A DNA stretch of 64,000 nt from Aliidiomarina iranensis (lineage in GTDB: Bacteria; Pseudomonadota; Gammaproteobacteria; Enterobacterales; Alteromonadaceae), in assembly GCF_003987135.1 (NCBI RefSeq), contig NZ_PIPJ01000001.1, forward strand, positions 248,001-312,000. Direction: 5' to 3'. A program made the translations under genes and the position numbers. A model generated the notes under the pieces. The model was not told the origin of the DNA and did not search any database. It saw only the letters and a program-made list of their open reading frames with translations. Of this stretch, positions 25,695 through 27,013 are shown piece after piece; positions within the stretch are counted from its first letter, which is position 1; the number at the start of each line of letters is the position of its first letter.

Positions 25695-25768
25695 TATACG
25701 CACTCGCGTATGAAAATTAACTTATATGCAAGTGCGTCTAAAATAAGATTTATATGAACTCACTTATA
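25695..25768. promoter_or_regulatory. Three operator-like boxes with an exact 28-base period
   Basis: Three 18-base near-palindromes precede the HipB-like gene: 25695-25712 (TATACGCACTCGCGTATG), 25723-25740 (TATATGCAAGTGCGTCTA, a better match when read in reverse) and 25751-25768 (TATATGAACTCACTTATA). Aligned on the central ACT they share the pattern TA-N-A-N-G-N-ACT with a mirrored right half. The starts are exactly 28 bases apart, and the last box ends 11 bases before the ATG. This fits cooperative binding of a HipB-like autorepressor. Confidence 0.65.
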
Positions 25769-25779
25769 AAAAGAGCGCA

Positions 25780-26055
25780 ATGAAAATTACTGATCCCAAA
25801 TCATTATCAAACTACATACGAGATAAACGAAGAACTCGCGGCCTTAGTCAAGCAAAGGTTGGTGATTTAGTTGGGCTTAGGCAAGGAACGGTTTCTAAAT
25901 TTGAATCAATGCCAGAGAAAATGCAGCTTGATACTTTGTTTCGTTTACTATCAGCTTTAGAGCTTGAGTTGTCAGTAAAACCTAAGAATAGCAATGACCT
26001 GAAGACTAATTCTAACTCTGTGTTGCCCGATGCCAAATGGAGTGAGGATTGGTAA
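25780..26055 (+). CDS. HipB-like XRE antitoxin/regulator
   Basis: A 91-residue protein with an XRE helix-turn-helix in residues 10-65 (RRTRGLSQAKVGDLVGLRQG, then TVSKFES) and a short polar C-terminal tail ending AKWSEDW. HipB proteins bind and neutralise the HipA kinase and repress their own operon through several operators. Here three boxes sit directly upstream. The stop codon overlaps the start of the hipA-derived gene by one base (TAATG). The protein appears complete even though its partner is not. Confidence 0.85.
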   Translation: MKITDPKSLSNYIRDKRRTRGLSQAKVGDLVGLRQGTVSKFESMPEKMQLDTLFRLLSALELELSVKPKNSNDLKTNSNSVLPDAKWSEDW

Positions 26056-26693
26056 TGAATACACTCGCTATTTATATGAACGGCTACCGCGTAGGCTACT
26101 TGAGCCGAAGTGATTCCGGCGCTCAGGAAAAAACAGCCCTTCTAAAAATAGACAACGTATGGTGTATTCCAAAAGGTAACACCCCAACTACACACATCAT
26201 CAAGCTTCCTGTTGGGAAGATTCAAAGCCATGATCACACGATTGACCTGACGGATAGCGTTGAGAATGAGATGTTGTGCCTAAGAATTGCAAAAGCATTT
26301 GGTTTTGATGCGCCCGCAAAGAACTTCTCTATACACATCGAGCCCCATGGTACCTACCGGTTAACACCGCTTTATGACATCATTTCTGCTCATACTGCAA
26401 TTGGTGGAAACGGCCTGAATATTCCTGATTTAAAACTTGCGATGAGCTTGCGAGGGTCGAGTGGAAAGAAATGGCGTATCTACCAAATTTTTCGGCGGCA
26501 TTTTTTAAATACCGCAAAAGAAGCTGAATTTAGCCCGAGCCGAATGAGCGAAATCATCACAACCCTATGCAATAAAGTGGATGATGTTATTGAACGAGTG
26601 AAAAATGATTTGCCGGATGATTTTCCGACGCGCGTTTCGACTCCTATTTTTGAGGGTATGCTTGAGCGTAAACGTCGACTTCTGATCGAATGA
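26055..26693 (+). pseudogene. Internally deleted HipA kinase gene, reading frame kept
   Basis: A frame of 212 residues against about 440 in a normal HipA. Its parts align in order with HipA but two large segments are missing. After the normal start (LAIYMNGYRVGYLSRSDSGA) the sequence jumps straight to QEKTALLKIDNVWCIPKG, the ATP-site loop region. After IAKAFGFDAP it jumps to AKNFSIHIEPHG and continues to a normal C-terminus. The segments normally between these, including VERFDRR with the catalytic aspartate and the N-T-D metal motif, are absent. Kinase activity is therefore not expected. Both joins keep frame, so a short protein may still be made and could bind the HipB-like partner. Confidence 0.8.
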
Positions 26694-26748
26694 ATCTACC
26701 CGATTGGTAACGTGAGTATTTTCAGCGAATAGAAGGTGTATAGAATAC

Positions 26749-27006
26749 TCAGGCCTTACCAAAACTCACAACAGGTTTTAAGATAAAGGGAGTTAGGGAT
26801 GAATACTTTACACGCCATTTATGAAACGTTGCGTTACCAATGCCGTACTTACGGCAGATATCTTTCACCGGCATTCCGGCCTCGGCTTCTTTTAAAATCG
26901 CCACAATCTGGCTTTCAGCCATGCGTTTGCTCATCGTAAAGCTCCTTTCTTTTAGTTTAAAAGAAATTCTACGAGTGAGCTGTACTATTTTTTTTGGGTA
27001 GTTACA
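26749..27006 (-). mobile_element. Remnant of an IS3-family insertion sequence (orfA start and left end)
   Basis: Residues 1-47 of a leftward frame (ATG at 26934) match the helix-turn-helix start of IS3-family OrfA proteins: RMAESQIVAILKEAEAGMPV, then KDICRKYGIGNATFHKW. After that the sequence becomes unrelated and the frame stops at 26749, well short of the usual length, and no orfB is present. Upstream, TGTAACTACCC at 27006-26996 could be the outer end of the element, only eight bases from the kdpE stop codon. The remnant marks the left border of the kdp region. Confidence 0.7.
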
Positions 27007-27013
27007 GAACAGC

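Follow-up and report, generated by a model that had tools for sequence, protein, structure and literature searches.

A hipBA module in Aliidiomarina iranensis with an intact antitoxin gene and a toxin gene shortened by two in-frame deletions

Layout of the locus

The window, i.e. the whole stretch of 64 000 nucleotides of Aliidiomarina iranensis DNA that was analysed, contains a hipBA module in which an intact hipB (25780..26055, + strand; 91 amino acids, ending in Trp) lies directly upstream of a shortened hipA (26055..26693, + strand; 212 amino acids in a single open frame), the stop of the former and the start of the latter overlapping as TAATG with one base shared. HipB is identical in 84, 88 and 88 of its 91 residues to the proteins of three related loci (L026, L027 and L028, respectively), which bears out the earlier sequence-only reading of this DNA that HipB is intact. 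Its HTH domain is recognized (HTH_3, 31.7 bits versus a cut-off of 23), and its best NCBIfam match is HipB PRK09726.1 with 53.1 bits, under the cut-off of 79 for that model. A defence-system reading of the locus was rejected, with the short protein giving no PADLOC match and HipB only weak HTH matches.

Upstream of hipB, an operator-like palindrome, ATACGCACTCGCGTAT (25696..25711, no strand), forms the left edge of the similarity to the relatives, and a second operator-like repeat (25724–25739) overlaps a putative σ70-like promoter, TTAACT-16-TAAAAT (25717..25744, + strand), assigned by its likeness to the consensus. The −35 box reads TTAACT in the window versus TTGACT in L026, L027, L029 and L030 and CTGACT in L028; the third base is thus A in the window and G in five of the five aligned relatives. 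The operators had been described as intact, a description that needs qualification: similarity to the relatives starts only at 25695/25696, the region is shortened, lacks the repeat found further upstream in the relatives and has an altered −35 box.

Genomic context

The similarity to L026, L027 and L028 spans exactly 25696 to 26761, and its right edge coincides with the terminus of an IS3-family element (26709..26761, + strand) that directly follows hipA and of which a further copy is present in the same genome. Beyond this edge the sequence is different in all four places, and on the two sides of the module the window matches other genomes, G011 on the left up to 25480 and G010 on the right from 27008. 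The hipBA module is thus an acquired unit, and a same-locus comparison with a full hipA is impossible. The sequence-only reading had regarded full HipA at the same locus in relatives, with clear decay in this strain only, as telling against its proposals; the near relatives do have full HipA, but at other places in their genomes, so that decay of this strain only cannot be read from a same-locus comparison. The segment 25696–26761 has the appearance of a compact mobile unit, with its left edge at the operator and its right edge at the IS3-family end in four genomes. A palindrome 3′ of hipA was considered as an integron cassette feature and rejected, being the end of the IS3-family element. A fragment of a second IS3-like element (start of the transposase orfA, minus strand) lies at 26804–27008, and similar sequence occurs in G016, G012, G006 and others. 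L028 itself is a contig of 4596 bases filed as a Candidatus Campbellbacteria MAG that carries an Aliidiomarina-like hipBA with 91–95% DNA identity over the aligned pieces; this contig is probably misbinned.

Two deletions within hipA

With the HipA gene of A. shirensis (L026; 437 amino acids, 93–95% DNA identity) as the reference, the DNA alignment of the window falls into three pieces. The first and second pieces share the ten bases CCGGCGCTCA (26116..26125, + strand), a 10 bp repeat that flanks the deleted segment in the full-length relatives, and 396 bp (132 codons) are skipped between them. At the second join the strict overlap is a single base, situated within the imperfect repeat GATGCGCCCG (26307..26316, + strand)/GATGGGCATG, and 279 bp (93 codons) are skipped. 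Both 396 and 279 are divisible by three, and 26055–26693 reads through 212 codons with the frame never broken; the HipA N-terminus, GAQEKTALL and the part from KNFS to the C-terminus are kept in the right order. In these respects, and in the positions of the joins, the sequence-only reading was correct, whereas its estimate of two missing blocks of about 120–130 residues each fits the first block (132 codons) and is too large for the second (93 codons). In L026, L027 and L028, CCGGCGCTCA is among the two longest exact direct repeats of hipA, with a spacing that is a multiple of three; since this spacing is already in frame, no selection is required for the first deletion to be in frame.

The first deletion takes out most of the N-terminal subdomain. 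The second takes out the stretch from an N-lobe helix to the catalytic loop, and with it the conserved motifs LPQED and ATDGH; within this lost segment, residues 232–258 alone contain 11 positions that are invariant across 31 relatives.

What the shortened protein keeps

On the structures of Escherichia coli HipA (PDB entries 3tpd, 2wiu and others), residues 19–88 of the short protein align with residues 150–219 and residues 84–209 with residues 308–433. Pfam HipA_C (PF07804) matches with 72.1 bits versus a cut-off of 30.5, the best stretch spanning only profile positions 136–211 of 213, and the NCBIfam model of the HipA N-terminal domain (TIGR03071), which gives 105.8 bits with full L026, has no match in the 212-residue protein at E ≤ 0.01. 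Several functional residues remain in register with the full protein: Ser19 (Ser151), which is aligned with the autophosphorylated serine of full HipA, Lys50 (Lys182), Asp85 (Asp310), Asn90 (Asn315) and Asp108 (Asp333), the last being the Mg-binding Asp of the YDI motif, here within LYDII. The Gly-rich loop is present as Gly22-Ala-Gln-Glu-Lys (GAQEKT), preceded by residues that derive from the N-terminal side. What we take to be the activation loop, at about residues 185–195 of E. coli HipA, lies in a retained stretch. The catalytic motif D-G-H-x-K-N has changed from TDGHAKN to FDAPAKN, in which the Asp/Asn spacing is kept and Gly-His is gone. The earlier statement that the catalytic aspartate region is gone is consequently only partly right: TDGH and the preceding helix are lost, but the left side of the second join supplies Asp85, and Asp85-x4-Asn90 keeps the spacing of Asp310-x4-Asn315.

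The AlphaFold2 model of the short form has a mean pLDDT of 65.2, with blocks of 34–52 in residues 1–60, values of 84–95 over most of residues 151–210 and confident C-terminal helices at 145–210. In the control prediction for full A. shirensis HipA the mean pLDDT is 86.9 and the pTM 0.90, with 84–96 over most of residues 161–240. The short form gave no complete bilobal kinase fold, no confident N-lobe being predicted. As the kinase N-lobe is not predicted to form, we infer from the model that the 212-residue protein has no kinase activity, and it is probably unstable.

Search for the short form and for decayed hipA in relatives

Close matches that carry a name, among them L026 of A. shirensis and the Idiomarina MAG L027, point to a position of the genome near Aliidiomarina and Idiomarina. 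A scan of the genome contigs showed a HipA frame of at least 400 amino acids in 23 of 24 loci, the 24th (L049) being left out of the call. Searches for the short form with P0001 gave matches in 11 of 17 genomes of the genus and 88 of 295 of the family, and the C-terminal 124 residues matched in 77 of 394 genomes of the order; among the matches listed at these three levels, the 212-residue form was found in the genome of the window only, so that the same short form, which the sequence-only reading had proposed to look for in related genomes, was not seen there. The same query matched 1473 plasmid records (best places below 80% identity among the best 20 of the 1473), two phage records and none of the viral contigs. 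The genome of the window has two other HipA_C genes, at G000:C34:55751-56389 and G000:C31:101830-102468, with frames of 418 and 433 amino acids. Neither is matched by P0001 at E ≤ 0.001, and the cell thus has no close HipA partner; the idea that a mini-HipA acts as a decoy for another cellular HipA was rejected since these genes are not close.

Sixteen short or suspicious places were inspected, with G125, G578, G541, G648:C86:37079, G415:C54, G363, G546 and G526 lying outside this sample. In four family members an intact hipB is accompanied by a hipA deleted out of frame, the missing residues being about 52–152 in G087, 41–264 in G149, 155–304 in G229 and, in G280, those from close to the start up to about 307. 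Only C-terminal pieces of hipA are present in G082, G005:C1, G095, G010:C7, G462 and G410, and in G455 hipA starts at about residue 177. In G601 and G487 hipB is present and hipA is frameshifted, in G423 hipA is reduced to its last ~120 residues beside hipB, and in G415, where hipB has no match, residues 128–201 are lost in frame before the frame breaks. Independently decayed hipA genes adjoining an intact hipB in relatives are those of L082, L083, L084 and L087.

When the two deletions of the window are counted with those of G087, G149, G229 and G280, two of six are in frame, which is the chance level (P = 0.65 for at least two). With G389 (described below) and G415 added the share becomes four of eight (P = 0.26), which leaves room for some favour toward in-frame loss.

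Constraint on the retained codons

Over the 207 retained codons the window branch carries four replacements and seven synonymous changes (P = 0.009 under neutrality for four or fewer replacements in 11 changes). Two of the four replacements equal the outgroup state; one of the other two, specific to the window, changes Arg to Pro at retained codon 120, where six of the six relatives compared have Arg. On the other branches replacements make up two of nine changes in L026, five of 11 in L027 and eight of 12 in L028, where neutrality is not rejected (P = 0.38) even though the protein is full length. The counts thus weakly suggest that most of the window branch was constrained, and they fit constraint before or after the deletions alike. 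Constraint on the retained parts, for which the sequence-only reading had suggested a dN/dS analysis, is therefore seen, but is equally expected from a recent deletion; for hipB, with two synonymous and two replacement changes on the window branch, only the shared constraint is seen, which adds little to the idea that the module was kept for its regulator.

A kinase-dead HipA in another genus

In another genus, G389 has a HipA of 369 amino acids beside an intact hipB, and the same shortened form is found in three of the 61 genomes of that genus (G389, G658 and G707), which represent three species; among the matches listed at E ≤ 1e-60 in 296 relatives, these three alone have it. The loci lie at 766–1869 of L096 (minus strand), about 991–2103 of L117 and about 1056–2156 of L118. 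In all three proteins the Gly-rich loop is missing together with its lysine; TRVNAKH, TGGHAKQ and TSLDARH stand in place of TDGHAKN, and the Mg-binding Asp is changed to His, Pro and Cys. They are nonetheless encoded in frame (367–371 amino acids) beside hipB, with identities of 55–74% and dN/dS of 0.19–0.22; the corresponding values are 0.04–0.15 when full HipA proteins of the genus are compared in three pairs, and 0.06–0.22 for their hipB. The N-terminal subdomain of the shortened form is kept in its entirety (TIGR03071, 63.7 bits). On the upstream side, G389 and G707 have flanks like those of canonical hipBA loci in the genus, and the matches for G658 fall within hipB itself; the downstream flanks of the dead hipBA gave no match, and G389 and G658 have flanking sequence in common. 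That a HipA without kinase residues has been held by selection in the three species is well supported by these comparisons.

A published Hip kinase phylogeny was restricted to sequences in which the four kinase motifs are all present (PMC8262856), and dead HipA forms would on that description be absent from it. Our literature search, of partial coverage, returned no account of a dead HipA kept with HipB, which leaves the absence of such an account unproven.

Interpretation

We consider it probable that a hipBA module was recently disarmed, its toxin cut by two deletions while hipB stayed intact. According to this explanation, a mobile hipBA module came to lie between unrelated chromosomal genes; the first deletion joined two copies of CCGGCGCTCA, presumably by slippage or short-repeat recombination; HipB, still encoded and overlapping hipA, would continue to repress its own promoter; and the kept reading frame would reflect chance and recency. 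The part of the sequence-only reading that spoke of a detoxified module is favoured by the alignment, by the low-confidence kinase fold and by the four relatives with intact hipB and out-of-frame hipA. A low replacement count on the window branch is what a recent deletion predicts, and the change of the promoter from TTGACT to TTAACT points the same way. Against it, both independent deletions are in frame, for which random frames would give a probability of 1/9, and the gene has since acquired neither a stop nor a frameshift. Selection on the short protein itself would account equally well for the low replacement rate, and the accidental retention of D-x4-N in a nearly dead protein is a coincidence that has to be accepted.

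The frame is also what would be expected if the gene encoded a selected non-catalytic remnant, a mini-HipA whose C-terminal helical domain binds HipB as a co-repressor or stabilizer and tunes the operator. The confidently predicted C-terminal helices and the constraint on the retained codons agree with this, and the dead HipA kept in three of 61 genomes of another genus, with its dN/dS of 0.19–0.22, is a natural precedent that makes the idea possible for the window gene. We nevertheless regard it as rather unlikely: the form occurs in one genome only among the matches listed in the genus, family and order searches, the precedent keeps an N-terminal subdomain that the window protein lacks, HipB contacts both the N and the C domain of HipA (PMC3376134), and the window-specific Arg-to-Pro change falls within the retained codons. 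It is possible, by analogy, that the window gene is on the same route as the lineage of G389, G658 and G707.

Somewhat less probable still is the retention of hipB as an anti-addiction factor against hipBA modules of nearly the same sequence that travel between these genomes. HipB shares 84–88 of its 91 residues with its counterparts in three modules whose HipA is full length, and those modules occupy different genomic places; however, an intact hipB with a broken toxin also results from the order of loss alone, because an earlier loss of hipB would expose the cell to HipA, and the four hipB changes on the window branch are too few for a test. A fault of assembly or of sequencing at the two joins would explain the occurrence in one genome only, but would need two separate errors that each keep the frame, at repeats of at most 10 bp, a length far under usual assembly word sizes, and within a contig of 700 190 bases of a genome rated 99.93% complete, so that a fault is very improbable. 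That the gene encodes a minimal working kinase, HipT-like after the first deletion and with every catalytic residue from Ser19 and Gly22-Ala-Gln-Glu-Lys through Lys50 and Asp85-x4-Asn90 to Asp108 surviving in order, has a parallel in HipT, HipG, HipI, HipJ and HipM, which naturally have no N-subdomain, but is scarcely credible given the segment from N-lobe helix to catalytic loop lost with its 11 invariant residues between 232 and 258, the pLDDT of 34–52 in the predicted N-lobe and an average of 279–321 amino acids for the smallest kinases of those families (PMC8262856).

Disarming by two deletions would offer a base-level view of how a toxin–antitoxin module loses its toxin, which is cut at short repeats while the antitoxin stays. 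The dead HipA of three species makes the role of a toxin-free HipBA module directly testable, and if the mini-HipA idea were true for the window as well as for G389, G658 and G707, HipBA modules would repeatedly become toxin-free regulators.

Comparison with known systems

The locus resembles the E. coli HipBA type II toxin–antitoxin module in gene order, in the start/stop overlap, in an HTH antitoxin ending in Trp, and in a HipA_C domain with similarity over both retained blocks, and differs from it in a HipA of 212 rather than 437–440 amino acids, from which the N-terminal subdomain and the stretch ahead of the catalytic loop are missing. With the decayed hipBA loci of G087, G149, G229 and G280 it shares an intact hipB, a large internal or start-proximal hipA deletion and a recognizable C-terminal part, whereas those loci have one deletion each, out of frame. 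The absence of the N-terminal subdomain and the position of the Gly-rich loop near the N-terminus recall HipBST/HipT, HipG, HipI, HipJ and HipM; however, these kinases have a complete kinase core and form separate clades (PMC8262856, PMC6581861), whereas the gene in the window derives from a full hipA (93–95% DNA identity) and has a second deletion in the core, and no separate hipS gene lies between hipB and the kinase gene, the hipB stop overlapping the start of the short hipA. The HipA of G389, G658 and G707 is like that of the window in having an in-frame internal deletion beside an intact hipB, and unlike it in that the Gly-rich loop block rather than the N-terminal subdomain is deleted, the catalytic and Mg-binding Asp residues are replaced, and the form is present in three species under purifying selection.
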